64,000 nt of DNA from Stigmatella aurantiaca. Its GTDB lineage: Bacteria; Myxococcota; Myxococcia; Myxococcales; Myxococcaceae. This document shows positions 16,328 through 60,767 of the stretch, piece by piece. Where the stretch lies: contig NZ_FOAP01000010.1 in assembly GCF_900109545.1 (NCBI RefSeq), positions 124,001 to 188,000 of the forward strand, given 5' to 3'. The notes under the pieces were generated by a model. The model saw only the letters and a program-made list of their open reading frames with translations. It was not told where the DNA came from and did not search any database. A program made the translations under genes and the position numbers. Positions within the stretch are counted from its first letter, which is position 1, and every line of letters starts with the position of its first letter.

Positions 16328-19300
16328 ATGCGATCGATCACGAACGTCCCTTCTCGGAATGCGAGGAGGCGGATTCATGCCCTCTCGTTGTTGCTGCTCT
16401 GGGTGTATGGCTGTCAGCCGGTAACGCCCGAGGAGATCTCTGGACGCGGCGGGCCCGAGGCTCCCTCTATCGGCACCACCTCGGCTTCCCTCACCAGCCA
16501 GTTCCAGGATCCATCCTCGTACGACGCGACCTGGGGCCTGCCGTTGGAGCCCAGCGCCGCGAACCTGACGCTCGCGGGCCTGGCGGCCCGGCTTGGCGAA
16601 GAATCGGAAGCCATTGTCGCGTTGCGCAAGGTGCACGAGAACTCCGCGAAGGTGCGGTTCCTGGAGGCCTACGCGCGTGACTACCCCACGTTCCTGGTGG
16701 GCAATCAGGCACTGTTGCCCAAGGGGGATGGGGTTCACCTGGAACAGAATCCCCGGGTCACGAAGGAGACGGTGAACCCCGCGGTGCATTGCAACACCAC
16801 ACACCTGTGCGAGGAACTGTACAACCGCAAGTCCTCCTCCACCGAGGAGTCCTCGGCGACACAGCTCGCGGACATCATCGTGTTGCTGGGATGGGATGTG
16901 GAGGTGGCAGGGCCGGTCTTCACCGAGGGCCGGTCGCTCCTCATCATCGCCGAGAACTTCCGGGGCCATGGGAATGCCATCAGCACCCAGCCCCGCTTCT
17001 TCCGGATGGCCGAGAATGAGTCCTCTCCCACGAAAGCCTCCAATGGACGCCATGGCCACCCGGGTGGGGCATTCCTGCTCTATACCAACGTGCTCGACAA
17101 GCTGAGCGTGAATGCCTCGGGAATGAACGGGGAGCCGGGACACCCGGGCACCCCGTACGTGGGCGGACAAATCACAGGCACCGAGATGGGAGGTTCCGCA
17201 AGCAGCCCCCACCTGGTGTGTTTGGGAGTCAATCCGGACAAGGATGCGCAGGATGGCGGGGATGGCAGCAACGGGGGCCGCGGGGGCACTGTCCTCGTGC
17301 GCTACGCCACCTTGATCGGAACGGGCGCGCCCCGGAAGCCGGAGAAGACGGCGCCGGTCAGCGATTGGGAGTGCTTCAGCGATCCGGCGCTGGGGTGTGA
17401 ATCGGTCCGCTGCACGAACAACCCGTCCGTGTCCATCTGTGACGTTCTCACCGAGGCAGACAACAAGCAGTGCCTGGATGGGATCGACAACGATGGGGAC
17501 GGGCGCCTGGACTGCTCGGACCCAGACTGCTTCGACAATCCCTTTGTCACGGTCTGCCCCATGGACCCCACGGCCACCAGCCACATCGTGGAGGGAACGC
17601 CCGAGGCTTGCAGCGATGGCTTTGGCTCGGACTGTGCCAGCACCGGGTGCAGGTATCTGGAGCAATGCGGGGGCACGGAACCCATCGGTCCTCTCTATCC
17701 CTATACGTCGGGCTTCGAGGAATCCACCAATGCCTCGTGCAGCAATGGCCTGGATGACGATGGCGATGGCTACACGGACTGCAGGGACAATGAATGCAGG
17801 TACAACTCCCTGGTGACGGTGTGCACCCGGGAGAACTCCGTCGAGGCCTGCGCCGATGGGCTGGACAATGACGGCGATGGCTACGCCGACTGCAATGACT
17901 TTGATTGTTCGCGCAACCCGTACGTGAAGGTTTGCAATGCGAGCAGCTATCCGTTCCTGGCCGAGAGCTCCAACGCGACCTGCTCCGATGGGCTGGACAA
18001 TGACTCGGATCGCTACAAGGACTGCAGGGACTACCAGTGCTTGAACAACCCCCTGGTGACCGTGTGCGGGAACCAGGAGAACTCCATGGCCGAGTGTTCC
18101 GACGGGCTGGACAATGACGGCGATGGCGTGACCGATTGCTCCGAGGGGACCTGCCGCGAGAATCCCTTCTTCGGGACGTATGTGTGCACGGGGCGGATTC
18201 AGACGAACCACACCCAGGTGGTGCCGCCGCCCACCTACAACGGGGTCTACCTCTCGGCCGCCATCTCGATGAAGTCCGCCAAGGGAACGCGCGGGGCTCC
18301 AGGGGCCAAGGGCACGATGCTGACCCAGAGCCGGGTGGTCAACACCCCCCCGAGTGGGCCCATCGTCTATACCTGTCACCTCGGCCGGGAGTCCTTCAAT
18401 GGCGCCAACACGGGCCAGGATGGCCTGCCGGGGGGAACCGAGCTTCGCTTCACCCCCCGCCGGTCCACCGACATCCTGCGCTCGCAGCTGTCTCCCAACC
18501 AGTGGGTCGTGAATGCCGCGCTGGGCAATGCCCACTTCAAGAACGGCAATGCGCAGAAGGCCTCGTTCCTGTTCATGCTCACGTTGATGCGCCTGCGGGG
18601 CGTGTTGGCCGACGCGGACATCGCGTCATGCGAGGAGCTTCCCGCCACGGCGTCCCTGAGGCAGCGGCAGGTCGCCCAGAATGTGTGTCCCACCCTGGGC
18701 CGGGTCCAGCTCCACTTCTCGCGCCTGAAGGCGGGCCTGGATTTCTATGGCCAGTCGAGGGAGCCACGCATCAACCCCCGTAACCGCTACCAGGCATTGC
18801 GCGAGGACTTCGATGACCGCTTCGAGTTGCTGAAGGGCAACGTCGACCGGTACCTCACCCTGTCCATCAGCCAGGATCTGGCGGCTTGGTTCAGCATCGA
18901 GGGGAGCAAGCTCCAACTGGAACTCGACAAGACGGCGTTGGAGCTGGATGCCGCCAACTTGCGGATCGATGCCGCGGAGGCTGCCCTGGATGGGCTCCTG
19001 CAAAGCATCAACCGCCGCAAGAATGAGTACGAGAACACGACCGAAGCCCTACAGACCTATGACGCCTCGAAGCAGGTCAGCCTGGGCTCCTTCTTGCTGG
19101 GGCTGGGCAAGGCGGCGCTCTCGGCCTTTGGCTCCGAGTTTCTCACCAAGGCGGGCGAGCAAGCCTTCAGCTCCCTCACCGACGCGCTTGGAGGTTGGTT
19201 TGACCAGGAGTCCGGAAAGAAGCCCGCGACGGCCGAGGGCAAAGAGGAGTCCAAGGACTTCCTCGGCTCCCTCACGGACATTGCTGGAGCCACGGCCGGC

Positions 19301-20485
19301 AGCGCGCTGAAGAAGGCGTTCGCGCAGATGAAGCCGGACCTCTTCAAGGTTGTCGAAGGCCTCGAGCTGTTCCCGAGGGCGCGGAGCACCATCACCAACG
19401 AGGTGTCGGCCACGGTGGCGTCCGAATCTCAGCGCCGCACCATCAATGAGTATCTGGATCTGGTGGCCAGCCTGGAGAAGGCGAAGCTGGATCTGGAGGC
19501 GGCGAAGATGGATGCCTTCACCCTGCGCTCGCATCATGCGAGCGTGCAGCGGCTCAAGCAGCAGGTGTCCGATTATGTGGGTCAGCAGGCCGCGCTCAGC
19601 GCGTTGGACCGGTTGCTGCTCCTCAAGCAGACGTATGCCATGACGATGCTGCTGCTGGATGACCTGGGCATGCGCTACTGGAATGTGGTCCGTCAGGCGC
19701 AGTACGAGAAGCTGCCGTTCTCCAGCCAGACGGGACAAAGCCTCCTGAGCGGAGACGTCATCAAGGTAGAGGCCTTCACCTTCGTCAACTTCGAGCAGAT
19801 GAAGTTGCGGCTGATCGATCTGGATGCCCAGCTCAACCACTTCACGAGCGGCCAGCGCGCCCAGTACCGGCGTGTGACGGGCAATCCCTTCGTACAAGCG
19901 TCCACGGGTGAGAAGGAGGTGCTGACAGCCCTGGGGCTGGACTACCTGAACACGCCCTACCTCTTCCACGTCAACATCACCTACGACGGGCTGAACTCGA
20001 CGCTGCTCAAGCACCGCATCCGGGATGTGCGCGTCAATTTCCTGGGGACGAATGGGGGGACGGCGCGCCATTCCATCTTCCTGGTGCGGGACATGCTCGA
20101 CTCGTTCTATGTGGGCCGGAACGCCTCGACGGGCGAGCCGTGGATCATCGACTTCGAGCTCACGGACAAGGATCTCGCCTCCAATGGCTCGGTGCGCAGC
20201 CCCTTGCACTACCAGAGCTTCCTGGCCTGCACGGCGGTGCCTCCTTCGTGTGACTTGAGCCAGGCCTCCTGCCGCACGCCTTTCCAGGACGTGCCTACCG
20301 CGGATGCGTGCAGCATTTCCGGCCCTGTGCCGGACACGGCGGCCAACGTGACGTTCTATGACCGCAGCCTCGCGGGAAACTGGACCGTCGTCCTGCCCGC
20401 CAGCGACTACACCGCCCTTGAGACGGGCTTGGGTGGCATCCAGGGTGTCGAGGTGGTGTTCGACACGGTGGCGGTCGACCTCTAG
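16328..20485 (+). CDS. Very large lipoprotein with five Asp-rich Cys-flanked (MopE/thrombospondin-3-like) motifs
   Basis: 1385 residues. ATG 16328 gives a lipoprotein signal (LLLLWVYGC, C29). Regions in order: a Ser-rich linker, an Ala-rich helix, a Gly-rich collagen-like stretch with GxxG turns (about 240-330), five copies of C-x-(D/N)G-x-D-(N/D)-D-x-D-x4-DC-x4-C starting at C382, C471, C508, C552 and C590, a second Gly-rich patch (KGTRGAPGAKG), then a long helical part with heptad-like segments (about 870-910 and 1035-1090) and a beta-rich C-terminus. The Asp-rich motifs resemble calcium/metal-binding MopE or thrombospondin type-3 loops. Expected to be outer-membrane anchored and metal-stabilised; role unknown. 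A TAGAGA motif lies 8 bp upstream. Confidence 0.82.
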   Translation: MRSITNVPSRNARRRIHALSLLLLWVYGCQPVTPEEISGRGGPEAPSIGTTSASLTSQFQDPSSYDATWGLPLEPSAANLTLAGLAARLGEESEAIVALRKVHENSAKVRFLEAYARDYPTFLVGNQALLPKGDGVHLEQNPRVTKETVNPAVHCNTTHLCEELYNRKSSSTEESSATQLADIIVLLGWDVEVAGPVFTEGRSLLIIAENFRGHGNAISTQPRFFRMAENESSPTKASNGRHGHPGGAFLLYTNVLDKLSVNASGMNGEPGHPGTPYVGGQITGTEMGGSASSPHLVCLGVNPDKDAQDGGDGSNGGRGGTVLVRYATLIGTGAPRKPEKTAPVSDWECFSDPALGCESVRCTNNPSVSICDVLTEADNKQCLDGIDNDGDGRLDCSDPDCFDNPFVTVCPMDPTATSHIVEGTPEACSDGFGSDCASTGCRYLEQCGGTEPIGPLYPYTSGFEESTNASCSNGLDDDGDGYTDCRDNECRYNSLVTVCTRENSVEACADGLDNDGDGYADCNDFDCSRNPYVKVCNASSYPFLAESSNATCSDGLDNDSDRYKDCRDYQCLNNPLVTVCGNQENSMAECSDGLDNDGDGVTDCSEGTCRENPFFGTYVCTGRIQTNHTQVVPPPTYNGVYLSAAISMKSAKGTRGAPGAKGTMLTQSRVVNTPPSGPIVYTCHLGRESFNGANTGQDGLPGGTELRFTPRRSTDILRSQLSPNQWVVNAALGNAHFKNGNAQKASFLFMLTLMRLRGVLADADIASCEELPATASLRQRQVAQNVCPTLGRVQLHFSRLKAGLDFYGQSREPRINPRNRYQALREDFDDRFELLKGNVDRYLTLSISQDLAAWFSIEGSKLQLELDKTALELDAANLRIDAAEAALDGLLQSINRRKNEYENTTEALQTYDASKQVSLGSFLLGLGKAALSAFGSEFLTKAGEQAFSSLTDALGGWFDQESGKKPATAEGKEESKDFLGSLTDIAGATAGSALKKAFAQMKPDLFKVVEGLELFPRARSTITNEVSATVASESQRRTINEYLDLVASLEKAKLDLEAAKMDAFTLRSHHASVQRLKQQVSDYVGQQAALSALDRLLLLKQTYAMTMLLLDDLGMRYWNVVRQAQYEKLPFSSQTGQSLLSGDVIKVEAFTFVNFEQMKLRLIDLDAQLNHFTSGQRAQYRRVTGNPFVQASTGEKEVLTALGLDYLNTPYLFHVNITYDGLNSTLLKHRIRDVRVNFLGTNGGTARHSIFLVRDMLDSFYVGRNASTGEPWIIDFELTDKDLASNGSVRSPLHYQSFLACTAVPPSCDLSQASCRTPFQDVPTADACSISGPVPDTAANVTFYDRSLAGNWTVVLPASDYTALETGLGGIQGVEVVFDTVAVDL
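17471..18154 (+). repeat. Five-copy 60-bp coding repeat (Asp-rich Cys-flanked motif)
   Basis: Each unit encodes 20 residues of the type C-x-DGLDNDGDGxxDCxDxxC. Units start at 17471, 17738, 17849, 17981 and 18095. Units 1, 2, 3 and 5 keep DNDGDG or DDDGDG; unit 4 reads DNDSDR and has lost two of the loop positions. Linkers between the last four units share (Y/S)NSLVTVC or NNPLVTVC-type sequence, so the true repeat is longer than the motif itself. Confidence 0.85.
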
Positions 20486-53369: not shown

Positions 53370-55151
53370 TTACAGCTCGACAGGGGTGCCATCCAGACGG
53401 GTAAAGGCGAACCCCCGGAAGACCTGCTCGGCGTAGGTGGGACGCTCCTCTCGGAGGAAGCGGATGGCCACCTCCTCGCCCAGGCGGAAGCCGGCGAGAT
53501 CATCTGCCCGGTAGTGGACGCCGTACGCATCCCGGCCGAGCGAGGTGTTGTGAGCAAGCTTGTTGAGCTCTCCGGCGACGGTGAGGGGGGGGCCGTCCAC
53601 ACCGGGCACATAGGGCTCAAGCGCCGTGCCCTCGCGGTTGGGTTTGACAGGGTTGGGCAGGACGAAGTCCTCCTTGAACCAGGCATTGAGGAGGGCAGCG
53701 CGGGAGCCCGCGGTGTAGGCGTGCCCCGCCGGGTGGGAAGGATCCGTCGGCGAGCCAATGGGCATCATGACTGGCAGCAGGAACGAGCCCTGGCCGTCGT
53801 TCAGCCCCCGCCGCCTGTTGACCAGCTCGTTGTAGGCGTGGATGCGCTCGAGCACGGGCGAGTCCAGCAACTCCGGGTGGATGGGGTAGTCCGCAGCGCC
53901 CCGCCGGCGGTTGTGCACGCGCCCGCCAAAGGCATCCGGCCTCAGGTAGCGGTGGATGAACCACTTGCCATAGAAGCCGTGGTGACTCACCCGGGTGAGG
54001 CAGCCCATCAGCGTGAGCAGGTGGGACGCCCCGAAGCTGGCGAATCCAGTTTGCGTCCTGCTCGCCTTGTAGGGGTTGCGGTCGCTCAAGGCCGCATCCC
54101 CCAGGCCCAGGAGGATGAGGGCCGCCCGGAGGTAGGGGGTGAAGTGCACGTCTGAGTTGGCGTTCTGGCCCAGGGAGCGCAAATCATGGATGTGCCGGGG
54201 GACCGGATCCATGCGCGGAGGGGTGATGGTGGTCCCCTCGGGGAAGCCGCGCTGTGCCGCCAGCCACTCGTCATAGGAGGTCATGAAGTCGATGCCCTCT
54301 CCCGTGGTGACGGACAGCGGGACCTGGAGCCGGGATTCGATGGCGATGCCATCGAACACCCAGGGCCGCAGCAGGAACTGGGAGACCATGGGGCCCTCCA
54401 GGACTCCGGGGCTGTCCATGCGGAAGATCGTCTGCGGGGTCAGGGGCTTGGGGCCCTTGTAGCCGGAGTAGCGGTTGAGATCCGCGATGGCCGCGGCGAT
54501 GGTGGGGTCGCTGGGGTAGTCGGTGAAGGGGATGTCACGGCAGAGCGCCATCCAGTAGAGCTCCGCCACCTGGGCTGCCGCTTCGGGGCTGGCCAGAGGG
54601 GGAGGGATGTCGAGACACACGGCGGCGGCATCCGGTCCCACCAGATCGTACGTCAGGCCCCCCAAGGGGTTGGTCAGCTTCAGCCGGCCGCCCAGGGGCA
54701 GGGCCTCGAAGTCCTCGAAGCGGCCGGTGGCGAGTGCGCGCAGCATCGCGTCGTAAGCAGAGGGGTCTACCTCGCCCAGCTCATTGTGGGGCAAGCCCTT
54801 GGAATAGTTGCCAATGCGGTTGGGATAGCGCTCTTCATCCTTGTTGGTCCGTTTGGGGAAGACGCCCCTCTTGAACTCGTTGAGAGCGGCCTGCTGGCGC
54901 AGTTGGTACGCACGGGTGCGCCGGGCCTGGGCCCTGCGCGTTTCTGGCCGCGCGGGGACCTCGGGCGGTTCGCAGGGAGGCTCGATCACCGGAGGAGCGC
55001 CCAGCGCCAGGGCGGCCAGTGCCGAGCCTCCCATCCCGCCCAGGAAGCTGCGGCGGCTGGGCCGTGCCGGTGGGTTCACCTCCTCGGGTGTTGCTTGGGC
55101 GTGACCCTCCGTGGACTCTTCCGGTGGAAGGTCCTCGTGTTGCTTTTCCAT
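53370..55151 (-). CDS. Tat-exported vanadium-dependent haloperoxidase-like protein
   Basis: 593 residues. After an acidic N-terminus there is a twin-arginine signal (SRRSFLGGMGGSALAALALG). The C-terminal half has the vanadate-binding pattern of haloperoxidases and PAP2 phosphatases: K-W-x5-L-R-P near 397 (KWFIHRYLRP), PAGHAYTAGSRAALL near 472 where the usual motif is SGH (here Ala precedes Gly), and GRDAYGVHYR near 540 with Arg and His in R-x5-H spacing. Likely to oxidise halides with hydrogen peroxide in the periplasm or outside. It stands alone, with 105 and 177 bp of non-coding flanks. Confidence 0.88.
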   Translation of the reverse strand: MEKQHEDLPPEESTEGHAQATPEEVNPPARPSRRSFLGGMGGSALAALALGAPPVIEPPCEPPEVPARPETRRAQARRTRAYQLRQQAALNEFKRGVFPKRTNKDEERYPNRIGNYSKGLPHNELGEVDPSAYDAMLRALATGRFEDFEALPLGGRLKLTNPLGGLTYDLVGPDAAAVCLDIPPPLASPEAAAQVAELYWMALCRDIPFTDYPSDPTIAAAIADLNRYSGYKGPKPLTPQTIFRMDSPGVLEGPMVSQFLLRPWVFDGIAIESRLQVPLSVTTGEGIDFMTSYDEWLAAQRGFPEGTTITPPRMDPVPRHIHDLRSLGQNANSDVHFTPYLRAALILLGLGDAALSDRNPYKASRTQTGFASFGASHLLTLMGCLTRVSHHGFYGKWFIHRYLRPDAFGGRVHNRRRGAADYPIHPELLDSPVLERIHAYNELVNRRRGLNDGQGSFLLPVMMPIGSPTDPSHPAGHAYTAGSRAALLNAWFKEDFVLPNPVKPNREGTALEPYVPGVDGPPLTVAGELNKLAHNTSLGRDAYGVHYRADDLAGFRLGEEVAIRFLREERPTYAEQVFRGFAFTRLDGTPVEL

Positions 55152-55328
55152 GTGTATCCCCCCCTGCTTTCGCGGCTCACTTCATGCCCGCCGCGGCCCT
55201 CCTCAATCACGCATCCGCTCTCTCTCGGTTGATTCGTCGACGCTCGTCAATGCCAGACTGTTGGCTCGCAGCCTGCGAAGACGCCTCCGGGTCCAATCCC
55301 GGCAGCCTGAACCGCCATGGAGAGCTGC

Positions 55329-57014
55329 TCAAGGGAAGCCTCCAGGCGGCTCTTCCTGCCGCAGTGGCCAGAGCAGGTGGGCCATGTTCATGTAGAGCGT
55401 TCCCAGGCTGTGCAGATCCTCTGAGCTCACCTCGGTCGCGATACGCAGGAAACTGCCGGCGGAGAGCTCGGAGGGGGAGGCGAGCCGGGTCCGGAAGCGT
55501 GTCTGCAACAATTCGGGAACCGCGCTGGAGATGTGCCGCTTGGTGAGCACGTCATCGTACCGCTGAGCCCACTCCAAGAGCTGCCGCTGGAGTTCCCTCC
55601 GGAGCTTCTCCCTTGGTCCGAAGACTTGCAGGCACATTTGAAAGAGTTCTGAGCCCGCTTCGGGCTGGGCGCTGGCAAAGAGGGGATCGCCTGCAGCTCT
55701 CCAGAGGATGTCCCAAGCCGGTGCTGCGTGCTCCTGTGCGAAGAGCCCGCAGGCGGTGAGGTAGCTCTGCATCGAGTCGTGGAAGAACCGGACCTCGCAA
55801 GGAACCTGTTCTGGGGTGGGCGCCGTGCCATCAGGGACGAGCACCCCGGCCTTCAGGAGCTTTTGCAGGTGCTCCTGCTCCGGTGCGTTCCGGTAGCGGA
55901 GGGAGCGGATGCCGTTGACCCAGTAGGTCCGGAGGCAGAACTGGCTGGTCCACGCCAGCAACTGCGAGTCCTCCTCACCAGTGGCCGTCCCTTGCTGCCG
56001 GAGCAGGCCGCGGAAGGCCGCCTCATAGAGTTCGGCGATGCCACGTACCCCTGGGTTCCCGCCGAATAAGAGGGCCAACCGGACCAGGATGGGCAGGTAG
56101 GTGCCATCGGCTCCCCGGCAGGCCCGCAGGATGTTCTGGTTCTGCGTGCCGGTGCTCTCGGGTTCATAGGCCGAGATGAACCGGCCAAGGGTCTGCTCAT
56201 CCATGCGATTGGGCTCCACGTGCAGCCAGCCCGGGGAGTGCTCGAGGGCATGCCGGAACCCAAGGTGGGGCCGGGACGTGAGCAGAAGCCTGACGGAGGC
56301 CCCATGCCTGGAGTCGATGAAGGCCTGGAGGGCTTCCGGGGTAAGCGCAGACTCCGTGAGCCCATCCATCACCAGAACGCAGTCTCCCCAGTGCAACAGC
56401 ATCTCGTGGAGTTCGCTCGTGAGAGGTGTGGCCTCCAGTGCCCGGGATGCGGCTGCCTCCAGGCTCGTGGCCCGGGAGTCACAGAGCACGGGGAGAGGTC
56501 TTGAAGGGTCTTCCTCGAAAGCGAGGAGCATCCTTCGCACCACCTCTCGCAGGAGCGCGCTCTTGCCACGCCCGCCGGGAGATTCGATGAGGACATTCCC
56601 GCTTTGCGCCCCAGGAGGTTGTACGAGGAACCGGCAGAGTTGCTCCTCTGGCTGCGAAAAGAGGAGGAGGGAACTCCCTCCTCCCTTGCGAAGGCTCACC
56701 GGCATGGAAACGAACCGCTCGTCATTGGCCTGGCTGCGCCACGTTTCCAGCTTCCGGCGGACATGCGAGACATAGTCACCGAAGACATGCCGGCGGGTGG
56801 CAGGCAGGGTGAGCGCCAGGGGCACCAGCCACTGGAACGGCTTGGTCGACGCCAGCAGGCGGAACATCGCCGGAGAGAAGGCGCCCACGAGCAGACAAAG
56901 AATCATCTCGGCGAAGAACACGCCCACGAAGGAGGGGAAGTGGATCCTCAAGTCGCGTGCCAGGCCGGCCATGGCGAGTCCGCTGCCCCCGATGATGTTC
57001 ACCAGCCAGGTCAC
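55329..57014 (-). CDS. Membrane-anchored NACHT-type (STAND) NTPase
   Basis: 561 residues. Two hydrophobic segments at the N-terminus (about 28-50 and 60-72), then an NTPase domain: Walker A ESPGGRGKSA near 144-153 (GGRGKS), Walker B CVLVMDGLTES near 213, and LLLTSRPH (sensor-like) after it. The region after about 265 is helical with a winged-helix-like part and no leucine-rich, ankyrin or TPR repeats that I can see. NACHT STAND proteins act as switch ATPases in defence and signalling. It is 20 bp downstream of the partner at 57035-59074. Start GTG 57014. Confidence 0.78.
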   Translation of the reverse strand: MTWLVNIIGGSGLAMAGLARDLRIHFPSFVGVFFAEMILCLLVGAFSPAMFRLLASTKPFQWLVPLALTLPATRRHVFGDYVSHVRRKLETWRSQANDERFVSMPVSLRKGGGSSLLLFSQPEEQLCRFLVQPPGAQSGNVLIESPGGRGKSALLREVVRRMLLAFEEDPSRPLPVLCDSRATSLEAAASRALEATPLTSELHEMLLHWGDCVLVMDGLTESALTPEALQAFIDSRHGASVRLLLTSRPHLGFRHALEHSPGWLHVEPNRMDEQTLGRFISAYEPESTGTQNQNILRACRGADGTYLPILVRLALLFGGNPGVRGIAELYEAAFRGLLRQQGTATGEEDSQLLAWTSQFCLRTYWVNGIRSLRYRNAPEQEHLQKLLKAGVLVPDGTAPTPEQVPCEVRFFHDSMQSYLTACGLFAQEHAAPAWDILWRAAGDPLFASAQPEAGSELFQMCLQVFGPREKLRRELQRQLLEWAQRYDDVLTKRHISSAVPELLQTRFRTRLASPSELSAGSFLRIATEVSSEDLHSLGTLYMNMAHLLWPLRQEEPPGGFP

Positions 57015-57034
57015 GAAGGGGCCCCAGCGCCGCG

Positions 57035-59074
57035 CTAGACGCTGGGGGGCAAGAACACCATGGGGAGGAGGAAGAGCAGCGTCGCCACGAGGCAGGCCAC
57101 CGCTGTCCGGAACCAGACCTGCTCCCGGAGCGGCGCATGGAAGGGAACGTTCCGGACGGTCAGTTGCGTTTCGGTCCCGAGATTGTCCTGGTATTTGAAG
57201 ACGATGTCGTAGGCCCGTCCCTGAAGCGAAGGGCCGGTGTCATACCAGTTGAGCCGGGGGCCCGGTGCGCTCGCTTCAAAACTCCGGGTGGCCGAAGCAA
57301 CCGGGCTCTGGGGAGTACGGGGATCCCAGAAGGTGACCTGCAGGAGTCCGCTGGTCTCGGCCGCGTGTGCCAGGCCCGGCCAGTCCAAGGTGATCCCTCC
57401 TGAGTGCTCTGTGCGGAGCGGGGCCCGGATGTTGAGCGTTCCTTGCAACGAGGCGTTCCTCCCTTTTTCGACTTTCAAGGTCCCCCCCTTGAGTGCCAGG
57501 GCCGCGCCTACGATCGAACGGTGGACATAGGCAAAGCTGGCGGAACTGGTCTGAATCCAACCGTTTTGTCTATTCGGGACAGGAAAGACGTAATTGAGGT
57601 CCGTGGCTTTCAGTACAAGGTGTGTCTCCAGGTACCGGTCCTTGCTCAGGAAGGTATAGTAAAGGTTGCCGTCAGTCTCAGATTGAATCCAAGCTCCCTC
57701 GCCATTCTCCTCCACGATGAGCTGGCTGATTCCCGGCTTCTCTGTGAGAGAAGTCATCCGGACTGAGCCATCCGCTGGCTGGAAGTGAAAAGCGCTGTTT
57801 GTCCAGACGAGGAGCCCGTCGCTGGAGCCGATGGGAAAAGTGTGAAGATAATCAAAGCCTCCTTCTGCCGATTCGGACAAGGGCAGGATGCCTTTGCTGC
57901 TAGCGAGGCGCTTTCCCTTGCCATCCAACAGATACGCGTCTCCCTCACGGGTCAACACCCAGACATGGCCAAGCCGGAGCACCGTGACAAGCACTCCCTG
58001 TTTGAGGAAGAGCGGTCCTTCCGGAAGCACTTGCCGTCCCCAAGGATCGATGAGGTAGAGCCCCCCAGACCCGCCTGTCTCGGGACGGGTGTCCCCCGCG
58101 ACCCATAAGTGCGTCCCCTCTGGCTCCGGGACGATCTGGCGGACCGCCGCCCCATTCAGCAGAAGAATGGGTTTGGTTCCTGGTTCAGCCGTGGCGGTGA
58201 CGGAATAGAGCCGCCGTGCTCTCTGGGTACCTGGCTGGGTGGAAGGTCTGGCCATTACCCAGGCATGTGTTCCGGCCGGGCTTGGTACGACCATCAACAG
58301 TTCTTCTGCTTGCAGCAGCGGCCCCCTGACGGGATCCGCTGCCTGGGCATCAATGAAGAAGAGGGAACTTCTTGTCTTGAGCCAGGCCCTCTGCCCATCT
58401 CTCAGCGGGACAACTTGCCAGGACGTGGCGTCCGTACCCCTGGGGATTCCCAGCCTGTCAAAGGAGACGATAGGCTTGAGGACCCCTTGGGGATCGGCAA
58501 GGCCGAGCACATCCGAGCCTGAATGACTGAAGACGACCCAAATGTAAGGATGGGCGTCCGAGTCCTGCGGCAAGACTGCGTTGGGATACACGTCGTAGGG
58601 CGAACGGGATGATTGTTCCCGCAGACGGGTAATCCGATCCGCCTGAAGAACGGTGCGGCCTTCGACCTGTCCGCGATGAGCTTCCACGAGCATGAGGTGG
58701 TTTTCCGCTCGAGTGCCTGCCTGATGAGGCGATTGTGTGGTGACCCATGCCCGGCCCATGCGATCGGTTTGGATCAACTCTGAGATCTGGTTTCCAGGAG
58801 CGAGCCAAGAACCTGGCTCGTGGGTGCGTCTTCCTTCTGCATCGACGACATAGATGCTCTCTGATTCCGTTACCCAGGTCTGCCACCCGTCACTGAAGGG
58901 GGTGAGACGCGCCTTGGTTCTGGCCACGGGAACCGGCCAGAGAGTGCTGCCCCTGACTTCCAGTTGCTTCTCCGCTGAATCCTGGCTGTATGTCATTAGG
59001 CCGCACAGGATCAATAGGCAAAAAAGCGCCAACCTCCAAGGTGCTCTCCCCGCTCTACCTGCATCCCTGAGCAC
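57035..59074 (-). CDS. Membrane protein with propeller-like repeats, partner of the NACHT gene
   Basis: 679 residues from GTG 59074, with AGAGGAG 6 bp upstream. N-terminal membrane helix (LALFCLLILCGLMTY), a long extracytoplasmic part, and a C-terminal helix (WFRTAVACLVATLLFLLPMVF) very near the end. The middle repeats a (A/I/V)W(V/L/I) strand at intervals: TWVTE, AWVTT, IWVVF, AWLKT, AWVMA, LWVAG, VWVLT, AWIQS, GWIQT, as in beta-propeller blades. I recognise no named family. The lower GC and lack of an obvious core function suggest an accessory sensor. It precedes the NACHT gene in the same operon. Confidence 0.75.
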   Translation of the reverse strand: MLRDAGRAGRAPWRLALFCLLILCGLMTYSQDSAEKQLEVRGSTLWPVPVARTKARLTPFSDGWQTWVTESESIYVVDAEGRRTHEPGSWLAPGNQISELIQTDRMGRAWVTTQSPHQAGTRAENHLMLVEAHRGQVEGRTVLQADRITRLREQSSRSPYDVYPNAVLPQDSDAHPYIWVVFSHSGSDVLGLADPQGVLKPIVSFDRLGIPRGTDATSWQVVPLRDGQRAWLKTRSSLFFIDAQAADPVRGPLLQAEELLMVVPSPAGTHAWVMARPSTQPGTQRARRLYSVTATAEPGTKPILLLNGAAVRQIVPEPEGTHLWVAGDTRPETGGSGGLYLIDPWGRQVLPEGPLFLKQGVLVTVLRLGHVWVLTREGDAYLLDGKGKRLASSKGILPLSESAEGGFDYLHTFPIGSSDGLLVWTNSAFHFQPADGSVRMTSLTEKPGISQLIVEENGEGAWIQSETDGNLYYTFLSKDRYLETHLVLKATDLNYVFPVPNRQNGWIQTSSASFAYVHRSIVGAALALKGGTLKVEKGRNASLQGTLNIRAPLRTEHSGGITLDWPGLAHAAETSGLLQVTFWDPRTPQSPVASATRSFEASAPGPRLNWYDTGPSLQGRAYDIVFKYQDNLGTETQLTVRNVPFHAPLREQVWFRTAVACLVATLLFLLPMVFLPPSV

Positions 59075-59285
59075 GAAGGTCTCCTCTCACCGACCCCCCC
59101 CCCGTTCAGGAGAAACATTCTCATTCCTGCTCTGTTGGACCAAGCCATGCATGCGCGATGTACACTGAGCGATAGCTTGGATGCACTCTGGACTTAGAAG
59201 TCAGCGCTTGTTGGCAAGCCACGAGATGACAATGTTCCTAGCTTTCAGTCTGGGATTCGAGTGAGGCTGGTTGAACGGGGGAAAC

Positions 59286-59879
59286 ATGCGTTTTCTGACC
59301 ACGATGGCATGGATCGCAGTGCCCATGATTGCCTTTTCGGCTTATGGCAGTGATCAACAGAGGGTGAGAAGCAACGCTGGGACGGGCCAACTCGCGGAAG
59401 CCAAAAACACGGCCGATCTTCGCAAGGGCGCTCCGGCGGAGAAGCTCTCAAAGGAGAATTGTTCCAATACGGAGGGGCAGATCGGCGATTGCTCCCGGTG
59501 CTACGTGGAGCTCTGGAACCTAAAGGATCCTACGGTTCGGTTCCGCTTCTGTGGAGTTCTTGGCACGGATGTCAAAAAGCCATGCTGTAATCCAGTGAAG
59601 AAGGCGCTGGAACCGAGGTCACCAGATGGGCCTACCCCTTGCTCGTTGTGTTCGAGTATTGCTGAATGGGGAGACATCAATAGGGTTAATTGGAGAGATT
59701 ACAAGGTTGAGGTGGGGGCAAACGCAACGGTGTTTTTCGGAGTGAAGGAGAACGGTGAGACGAATAAAGAGTCTCTACGAGGGCCTCATGCAGGGTCTTT
59801 GGAAAAAGCCATGGAAAGGTTGGGGCTGGCCTCCCCGTTTCCATTAGCGATCTCCTGTCAATCAGAACCGCGTGAATGA
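59286..59879 (+). CDS. Cysteine-rich exported protein of unknown function
   Basis: 197 residues from ATG 59286 (GGGGG upstream). A signal peptide (MAWIAVPMIAFSAYG) is followed by a Ser/Lys-rich stretch and a domain with nine cysteines, several in close pairs (CSRC, PCC, CSLC), suggesting disulphides or metal binding. No family recognised. Codon use is AT-richer than in the neighbours: 32 of 60 bases are G or C at 59701-59760, against 46 of 60 in the kinase gene at 28861-28920. This suggests recent acquisition. Confidence 0.7.
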   Translation: MRFLTTMAWIAVPMIAFSAYGSDQQRVRSNAGTGQLAEAKNTADLRKGAPAEKLSKENCSNTEGQIGDCSRCYVELWNLKDPTVRFRFCGVLGTDVKKPCCNPVKKALEPRSPDGPTPCSLCSSIAEWGDINRVNWRDYKVEVGANATVFFGVKENGETNKESLRGPHAGSLEKAMERLGLASPFPLAISCQSEPRE

Positions 59880-60212
59880 AGGAGTTCCCCCGTCTCGTCG
59901 CCCTCTCGGAAAGCGGCAGGGCGTTTCAGCGGAGAGCATGATCCAATGCGGTCTCGTGCCTGTACCTGGCAAAAGGATGTCAGTGGCGAAGCACACGGCC
60001 GAGTTCACCTGACGCTCTTGCAAGCGAAGGCAGTGGCAGCCACGGTCCAGGTGGAGTGGCGCTGCTACCGCGAGGACGTCGTGCGTGGAGACCGCCGGCG
60101 GCGCCATGACGTCCGCTTCGGGGCTGGTCCCTCCCTGAGCGCGCATGACGAGAAGCACGGTGTGCTCCTCCAACTCGCAGCCGTGTGGTGAGCCTCGCGC
60201 TCAGGCGCCGGG
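59880..60212. other. 333-bp stretch without a confident gene
   Basis: Between the Cys-rich orphan and tpx. It carries a short open frame on the plus strand (59946-60191, listed separately) and another on the minus strand, neither with a ribosome site or similarity I recognise. No hairpin with a T-run, repeat or tRNA was seen. It may be decayed coding sequence. Confidence 0.5.
59946..60191 (+). CDS. Short doubtful open frame, possibly remnant
   Basis: 81 codons from ATG 59946; no ribosome site close by and no recognised domain. A short segment (AKAVAATVQVEWRCYRED) looks protein-like, while the rest is Arg-rich. The overlapping minus-strand frame (59862-60173) is no better. It may be the remnant of a decayed gene or not coding at all. 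Confidence 0.2.
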   Translation: MRSRACTWQKDVSGEAHGRVHLTLLQAKAVAATVQVEWRCYREDVVRGDRRRRHDVRFGAGPSLSAHDEKHGVLLQLAAVW

Positions 60213-60704
60213 TTACAGCGCCGCGAGGGCCGCGTCGTAATTGGGCTCCTGGCCGATCTCCGGGACCTGCTCGGTGTGGAGGACCTTGCCGCTTTCATCG
60301 AGCACGATGACCGCGCGGGAATAGAGCCCGGCCAGGCCCCCTTCCAGGATGGTGACGCCGTATTGCTTGCCGAAGTCGCCCCGGAAGCCGGAGAAGCTCA
60401 GCGCCTTCTCGATGCCTTCGGCACCGCCGAAGCGCTTGAGCGCGAAGGGCAGGTCCATCGAGATGTTGATGACCGTGACGCCCGGCTTCTCCGTCGCATG
60501 CTGGTTGAAAGTGCGCACTGACGCCGCACAGACGCCGGTATCGATGCTCGGGAAGATGTTGAGCACGCGCTTGCCGGGGATCGACGAGAGCTTCTTGTCC
60601 GTCAGGTCAGTCCCGGTGAGCGTGGCATCCGGTGCGAGCGTTCCCACTGCGGGCAGTTGGCCCTGGGTCTGGATGGCGTTGCCCTTCAGCTTGATCGTGG
60701 CCAC
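60213..60704 (-). CDS. tpx: Thiol peroxidase (Tpx) lacking the resolving cysteine
   Basis: 163 residues, the family length. Atypical 2-Cys peroxiredoxin that reduces hydroperoxides. The peroxidatic cysteine C59 is intact in SIDTGVCAASVR. The resolving cysteine, expected in RFCGAEG (as in E. coli Tpx), is replaced by glycine (RFGGAEG, G93); C59 is the only cysteine in the protein. It should therefore need an external thiol partner. GTG 60704 has AAGGAG 7-8 bp upstream. Stand-alone gene 63 bp downstream of the hemerythrin-domain gene on the same strand. Confidence 0.93.
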   Translation of the reverse strand: MATIKLKGNAIQTQGQLPAVGTLAPDATLTGTDLTDKKLSSIPGKRVLNIFPSIDTGVCAASVRTFNQHATEKPGVTVINISMDLPFALKRFGGAEGIEKALSFSGFRGDFGKQYGVTILEGGLAGLYSRAVIVLDESGKVLHTEQVPEIGQEPNYDAALAAL

Positions 60705-60767
60705 GAACGTGTCTCCTTGAAAGTGGGAAACAGAGGGGGGGCGGTCCCCCCCTCGTCGGGCCCCGTC

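Follow-up and report, generated by a model that had tools for sequence, protein, structure and literature searches.

Hybrid two-component receptors with Reg_prop and Y_Y_Y domains are composed of a propeller, a strand-rich part, a transmembrane (TM) segment and a cytoplasmic output. In bacterial NACHT (bNACHT) anti-phage proteins an N-terminal effector is followed by a central NACHT domain and a C-terminal sensor, according to the accessible text of PMC12169576. Combinations of STAND or NACHT switches with propeller parts recur in conflict systems of multicellular bacteria, as far as the available portions of PMC7159879, PMC8195603 and PMC10907252 describe them, and for one Thiohalocapsa target the last of these predicts NACHT and lectin domains in the periplasm. 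Here, we analyze a locus of the myxobacterium Stigmatella aurantiaca where sequence and model data point to a single gene for a membrane-spanning receptor with a propeller and a NACHT switch, which appears in the present assembly as two open reading frames (ORFs). The locus lies in a stretch of 64,000 nucleotides (RefSeq assembly GCF_900109545.1, contig NZ_FOAP01000010.1, positions 124,001 to 188,000 of the forward strand), which is called the window in the following and to which all coordinates refer unless another locus is named. Labels of the form L0xx denote fetched stretches, G0xx compared genomes, and C32 the contig of the same genome that carries a paralogue (locus L005).

The frame break and the intact homologues

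On the minus strand, an ORF at 57035-59074 with a GTG start encodes a propeller-like product of 679 aa. It is followed, after a gap of 20 bp, by an ORF at 55329-57014, also with a GTG start, for a membrane NACHT-type NTPase of 561 aa. An initial annotation had described both as a two-gene module; its coordinates and gap are correct, but comparison with homologous sequences indicates that the two ORFs belong to one receptor gene whose frame is interrupted because one base is missing. In the alignment of the junction the window copy is one base short against all seven aligned relatives, at a run of six C residues on the minus strand (57044-57049; G6 on the plus strand) through which the paralogue and the relatives read in one frame. 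After this frameshift a premature TAG at 57035-57037 closes the propeller ORF. The remaining gaps within the gene in two pairwise alignments comprise 6 and 42 bases, none of them frame-breaking.

All 17 full-length homologues, on stretches from 13 genomes, contain matches to both halves within one frame, with the propeller-half match of L040 spanning 205 residues only. The paralogue on contig C32 contains both halves in one frame of 1271 codons and is 86% identical to the window copy in the NACHT half and 74% in the propeller half. Single frames are also found in L046 (Archangium lansinium), in L049 from a Thermoanaerobaculia metagenome-assembled genome (MAG), where a fusion of 1213 aa has the same order of parts, and, by its sequence, in L094. 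A search of the window's phylum gave 21 matches, of which 19 lay in frames with a length of 1255-1713 codons; the remaining matches were the window copy itself and a truncated copy of 410 codons. The truncated copy belongs to Hyalangium versicolor (L043 7175-8404 / L048 9443-10672), and an intact copy is present elsewhere in that genome. Stretches on the same contig were treated as duplicates (L045 = L033, L047 = L037), and two weak partial matches, L024 (G013, E 1.6e-6) and L025 (G033, E 3.8e-4), with 31-32% identity over about 200 residues in frames of 2216 and 2218 codons, were left out of the homologue count; the stretch around L024, L044, yielded no blastp match at 1e-5.

A coupled pair, with a propeller protein and a NACHT product that are translated separately and associate in the membrane, is compatible with two open ORFs at so short a distance, with a possible GTG start at 57014, and with purifying selection kept on both halves. 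One hydrophobic segment goes with the propeller and two with the NACHT product, so that both could insert. Two ORFs are also present in L050, from a Phycisphaerales MAG, but around undetermined bases; here, the TM-NACHT part is separated from an ORF of 840 aa that looks helical by eye, is without a Pfam match and is not a propeller. Because of these undetermined bases a fusion in L050 is unproven, and this locus decides nothing on one versus two genes. Against a coupled pair stand the fusion in every full-length homologue and the long single frames in the phylum search, the reduction of the split to a one-base deficit in a homopolymer, and the failure to see a convincing ribosome-binding site before 57014 by inspection. 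The GTG at this position is also GTG in the two closest relatives, where it is internal to the frame. The two-gene pair was rejected on the grounds of homologue fusion and junction alignment, and we regard it as highly improbable.

The ratio of nonsynonymous to synonymous substitution rates (dN/dS) between the window copy and that of G004 is 0.27 in the N-terminal and 0.175 in the C-terminal half; the two intact copies of G004 and C32, compared with each other, gave similar values (0.30 and 0.20). Thus, purifying selection acts on both halves of the window copy, and the frameshift is therefore recent, tolerated or a sequence error. We give roughly an even chance to a recent genuine frameshift that causes loss of function, or can be switched by slippage, with the C32 paralogue carrying the function. 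The homopolymer at the break, the presence of an unbroken further copy in this genome and four queried neighbouring genes that are open without internal stops speak for it; on the other side, one assembly of one strain cannot separate it from a sequencing or assembly error. Such an error, which would leave the strain with two intact receptors, has a probability somewhat short of even. It is favoured by the nature of the break, a lone homopolymer indel besides which the two pairwise alignments contain no gap that would shift the frame, and by the absence of relaxed selection in either half; against it, the assembly, a draft of 61 contigs, is 99.99% complete. A programmed frameshift was considered and rejected; it would require a -1 shift at G-CCC-CCC-A, a slippery site that is poor by eye, and the relatives need none.

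Predicted architecture of the receptor

The C-terminal receptor part (55329-57014, minus strand) is predicted to comprise TM2, TM3, a linker helix, a NACHT NTPase with winged helix and a short helical C-terminus. TM2 and TM3 are hydrophobic helices at about residues 1-19 and 28-46 of the 561-aa ORF. The motifs of this half include the P-loop GGRGKS, the Walker B motif DGLTES and FFHDSMQSYLTA. In a 13-row alignment that covers three phyla, with one MAG of the Acidobacteriota and one of the Planctomycetota next to members of the window's phylum, residues G147, G148, G150, K151 and S152 of the P-loop, D217, G218 and E221 of Walker B and H412 of the winged helix are invariant, and the winged-helix stretch FFHDSMQS is conserved together with P-loop and Walker B. 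The structural model of this half reached a confidence (pLDDT) of 79.3, better than that of the propeller half. In the fold search (VIA) it was matched to NLRC4 (Z 13.2, root-mean-square deviation 5.2, 373 aligned), NLRP3 (Z 12.7, 372 aligned) and NOD2 (Z 12.1, 390 aligned); Cdc6/Orc1, the highest-ranking entry with the title of an AAA+ protein outside the NLRs, reached Z 9.7. The tool cautions that helical arrangements may often give Z values of less than about 13; in the present case the motifs agree with the fold, P-loop, Walker B and winged-helix stretch being conserved. A NACHT plus winged-helix fold of the STAND/NACHT type is thereby supported for the C-terminal half, with nucleotide binding, hydrolysis and oligomerization as predicted activities. 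Family profiles hardly recognize it. Pfam PF05729 (NACHT) scored 14.1 bits, below its gathering score of 26.7, and was listed for none of 18 NACHT-half members at E 0.01; the only family matches of 18 NACHT-half homologues were AAA_35 and AAA_16, in one member each, at E 0.008-0.009. Of the profile searches against the PDB, one gave two chance-level rows (E 0.049 and 0.52) and another none.

The N-terminal receptor part (57035-59074, minus strand) extends from a hydrophobic start at about residues 11-29 of the 679-aa ORF through a putative beta-propeller and a strand-rich part to TM1, a hydrophobic segment at about 653-675, and ends at the premature TAG. By eye, lipobox-like starts are seen in L045, L046 and L047, and the start of the window copy is without one. 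In model and fold search the strands at residues about 39-518 match beta-propellers, the WD40 domain of Sif2 (1r5m, 296 aligned) scoring Z 13.2 and the propeller of RbBP5 (5ov3_B, 271 aligned) Z 12.9, so that a beta-propeller fold (residues about 43-520) can be assigned to this half with moderate confidence. For the strand-rich part (residues about 526-644) a sandwich-like fold may be supposed, with low confidence. Five propeller-half rows gave family matches to Vgb_lyase (0.0021), SH3_16, DUF5818, DUF3565 and Reg_prop, in one member each.

Three hydrophobic segments separate propeller and NACHT in the C32 paralogue. If the start is exported, passage through three TM helices would leave the NACHT on the cytoplasmic side, a prediction with which the stretches rich in arginine that lie between TM1 and TM2, and again behind TM3, are consistent. 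The membrane NACHT-type NTPase of the initial annotation is borne out by motifs, NLR-like predicted fold and hydrophobic segments, and its membrane propeller protein by hydrophobic segments and, at moderate confidence, by model and fold search. Its pairing of a sensor-like propeller with a STAND switch is supported even more strongly than had been claimed because relatives carry both parts on one polypeptide.

Compared with metazoan NLRs, the predicted NACHT plus winged-helix fold is shared with the modules of NLRC4, NLRP3 and NOD2, which are its best structural matches. In contrast, identity is 12-16% in the alignments listed, LRR, CARD and PYD domains were not seen in the window protein, and the receptor would be embedded in the membrane with its sensor-like part at the N-terminus and apparently outside the cytoplasm. 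With bNACHT proteins it has in common the NACHT switch and possibly the short part after it, which would resemble that in the clade with a short C-terminal domain described in the accessible text of PMC12169576. Unlike these and the Avs proteins, it would have a propeller and three TM helices before the NACHT, no recognizable effector domain and a short helical C-terminus. The order of parts in hybrid two-component receptors is, by model, the same, but the output is a NACHT instead of a histidine kinase, Reg_prop stays under its cut-off and three TM helices are predicted; histidine kinase families of Pfam and NCBIfam were listed for neither half. The Thiohalocapsa target, as far as the text of PMC10907252 covers it, has a different layout. 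An exported propeller fused via TM helices to a NACHT was not found in the covered portions of the open-licence literature (bioRxiv preprints being outside this scope). The window proteins matched no Pfam or NCBIfam family above cut-off, and with a limit of E 1 PADLOC reported no family for either half or for the exported partner described below. The layout thus appears undescribed in the family libraries and literature searched, while its parts, the NACHT switch and the propeller, are known.

Exported partner gene, distribution and genomic setting

The real second gene of the locus is divergent from the receptor gene and encodes, at 59271-59879 on the plus strand, a small Cys-containing protein predicted to be exported. 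In tblastn searches with this partner, counterparts were found in the same divergent position at both closest homologues, L027 (G004, 2.8e-36) and L005 (C32, 1.2e-27), and more weakly at L029 (0.005) and L030 (0.048). The partner of L031 was tied in through L029 and L030 (cluster cl13), and that of L028 by position and motif by eye only. A hidden Markov model (HMM) was built from these seven sequences (window, L005, L027-L031), so that their own scores are circular; among 5212 ORFs its best match outside the training set was at L094 (E 0.0028), divergently upstream of the receptor there. According to the HMM, the genes for exported proteins next to the L049 receptor are unrelated to the window partner. 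This acidobacterial fusion belongs to a row of genes on one strand (L049 5507-13206). It is preceded by the gene for a large exported protein that by eye resembles ice-binding proteins, and followed by genes for two products that look exported; the nearer of these two genes overlaps the stop codon of the fusion.

The receptor family is rare. A match is present in 13 of 98 genomes, the own genome included, and with copies in three of seven genomes the distribution within the window's genus is patchy. In the window's phylum 15 of 195 genomes (13 of 149 of high quality) have a match, all in one family. Two other phyla yielded one genome each, already known, out of 396 and 392; both sets were samples of larger groups, and scoring was limited to the three best candidates per genome (seven in the own-phylum search), so that absence of a match is no proof of absence there. 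Searches of plasmids and phages by tblastn with the NACHT half gave no match, and of 31 pattern stretches on viral contigs none was confirmed.

A tree of 21 NACHT-half rows contains a group I (window, C32, G004, L028-L033 and L094; 10 rows, support 97/100), a group II (L034-L042; 9 rows, support 100/100) and, as long branches of unsure placement, L049 and L050. Within group I, leaving aside the two closest copies, identity is 40-48% in the propeller half and 56-63% in the NACHT half; the lower identity and higher dN/dS of the propeller half fit a recognition part. Group II copies occur in a shared neighbourhood in all nine genomes sampled of genera g8 (all five, Archangium included) and g12 (all four), and the receptor therefore looks settled there. 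A fixed presence in relatives, which had been named as counterevidence to an accessory module, is accordingly seen for this branch only, as compared with three of seven genomes in the window's genus. At nine group II loci (cluster cl2) the receptor gene is followed by a DUF4184/zinc-phospholipase-C-like gene, e.g. at L046 11798-12565, with Pfam run on one member. Directly downstream of the intact paralogue lies, at L005 6195-7346, a gene which we take to be rlmN-like.

In the window, the receptor gene and its partner are part of an accessory interval at 53370-60740, whose left end is provisional; it also contains two genes that by eye are haloperoxidase-like and peroxiredoxin-like. Synteny on the right-hand side with three relatives (G001, G004, G005) starts at about 60737-60747; left of about 60737 no DNA similarity to the window was found in these genomes. 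A tldD-like gene (by eye) is present in all seven genomes of the genus, and a hemerythrin-like gene (by eye) has a match in six of them, with at least 74% identity in five. They lie about 8.5 kb apart in the window and about 10, 20 and 45 kb apart in G005, G001 and G004, respectively. The accessory block of the initial annotation is thus supported by an interval that differs in length between these relatives and by the missing DNA similarity. Its lower G+C content is recovered at 57001-59000, over the propeller half (0.606-0.607), and at 59001-60000, upstream of the receptor gene (0.551), and not for the NACHT half, which with about 0.65 is hardly below its neighbours at 0.65-0.72; its hand count of 31 of 60 bases at 57661-57720 agrees with the sequence. 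A separate dip to 0.618 is located at 19001-20000. The haloperoxidase-like gene (53370-55151, minus strand) has a counterpart in one of the seven genus genomes, with PAP2 and TAT-signal matches below cut-off. The peroxiredoxin-like gene (60213-60704, minus strand) has one in two of the seven (E 1e-20), located elsewhere in the chromosome in G005. In G001, G005 and G004 the crudely called ORFs of the variable interval resemble, by eye, metabolic, secreted, kinase and transposase genes. A defence hotspot was rejected for this interval as its ORF content by eye is unlike a defence island, no family search having been run on these ORFs.

Proposed mode of action

A propeller outside that is joined to a NACHT inside would be a receptor layout. 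We consider it slightly more probable than the contrary that the intact gene encodes a transmembrane NACHT receptor with an extracytoplasmic propeller and strand-rich part, three TM helices and a cytoplasmic NACHT switch; its topology, nucleotide switching, ligand and output are conjectural. Several observations weigh against this reading. The model of the propeller half is of moderate quality (pLDDT 66.5) and does not resolve the blade number, and TM-scores among the matches listed are 0.15-0.33. The strand-rich part was modelled with pLDDT largely under 50-60, and the structural search matched nothing to it. The weak match to Reg_prop, a propeller family, is below the gathering score (13.5 bits versus a cut-off of 20.4). 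The topology is based on hydropathy and models, and no recognizable effector or output domain, e.g. a DNA-binding domain, was found in the receptor. With regard to the partner, no counterpart was found beside the receptor of L033 by HMM or neighbourhood, and the candidate of L032 scored among chance-level rows (HMM 0.35), yet lies divergently upstream. In group II, a different divergent gene for a Pro-rich exported protein is present at seven distinct loci of ten, L046 included (cluster cl3, whose listing shows eight, one being a duplicate).

In the transmembrane NACHT receptor, the propeller may recognize a target in the periplasm or envelope; candidates are a molecule of foreign origin, damage to the envelope, or the small exported product of the divergent neighbour gene. 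Binding of the ligand or partner outside would move the TM bundle, bring about nucleotide exchange in the NACHT and release it from a closed, nucleotide-bound state. Oligomerization of the NACHT might then gather the TM helices and permeabilize the inner membrane, or recruit an unlinked effector; as there is no recognizable effector domain, the output is a guess. A bolder version seems rather unlikely to us. In it, the protein would be an NLR-like outside-in receptor whose gathered TM helices are themselves the effector, whose sensor part is exchangeable, and for which the exported protein serves as ligand, co-receptor or brake. Exchangeability of the sensor is suggested by L050 from the Phycisphaerales, where an ORF that looks helical and is not a propeller stands before the TM-NACHT part.

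Envelope sensors can have accessory periplasmic proteins, as in CpxA/CpxP. By analogy, the divergent exported partner would suit a physiological sensor of envelope or polysaccharides that is laid out like a hybrid two-component receptor with a NACHT replacing the kinase. The similar order of parts by model, the weak Reg_prop match and the settled place of the group II copies point the same way. The sub-threshold score of Reg_prop, the missing output domain and the fact that Y_Y_Y was not listed in the family searches of the window proteins or the propeller-half rows argue against such a sensor, which we regard as a tentative possibility.

An NLR that kills the cell upon activation in anti-phage defence appears doubtful, although bNACHT proteins with anti-phage action are known, according to the accessible text of PMC12169576. 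The NACHT fold is close to that of NLRs, and the patchy occurrence in the window's genus would fit. L050 (1-7169) adjoins AbiEii/AbiEi-type genes (AbiEii and AbiEi_2 above Pfam cut-offs) and a protein of 1591 aa with Avs4 and PDC-M54A matches, and one gene near the G004 copy has a short, faint match to PDC-M05A (E 1.5e-6). On the other hand, neither the window proteins nor the AbiE-type genes in L050 were recognized by PADLOC, the searches of plasmids, phages and viral contigs yielded no confirmed match, and the variable interval of the relatives was unlike a defence island by the inspection described above. In g8 and g12 the group II copies look more like a core trait. The defence role suggested in the initial annotation is consequently neither shown nor excluded.

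Overall, the locus illustrates that a split copy read alone can mimic a two-gene system, since one missing base created the apparent pair. If the transmembrane NACHT receptor is as proposed, an NLR-type switch would also be able to read the outside of the cell, and in myxobacteria inflammasome-like machinery would be joined to receptor-type signalling.

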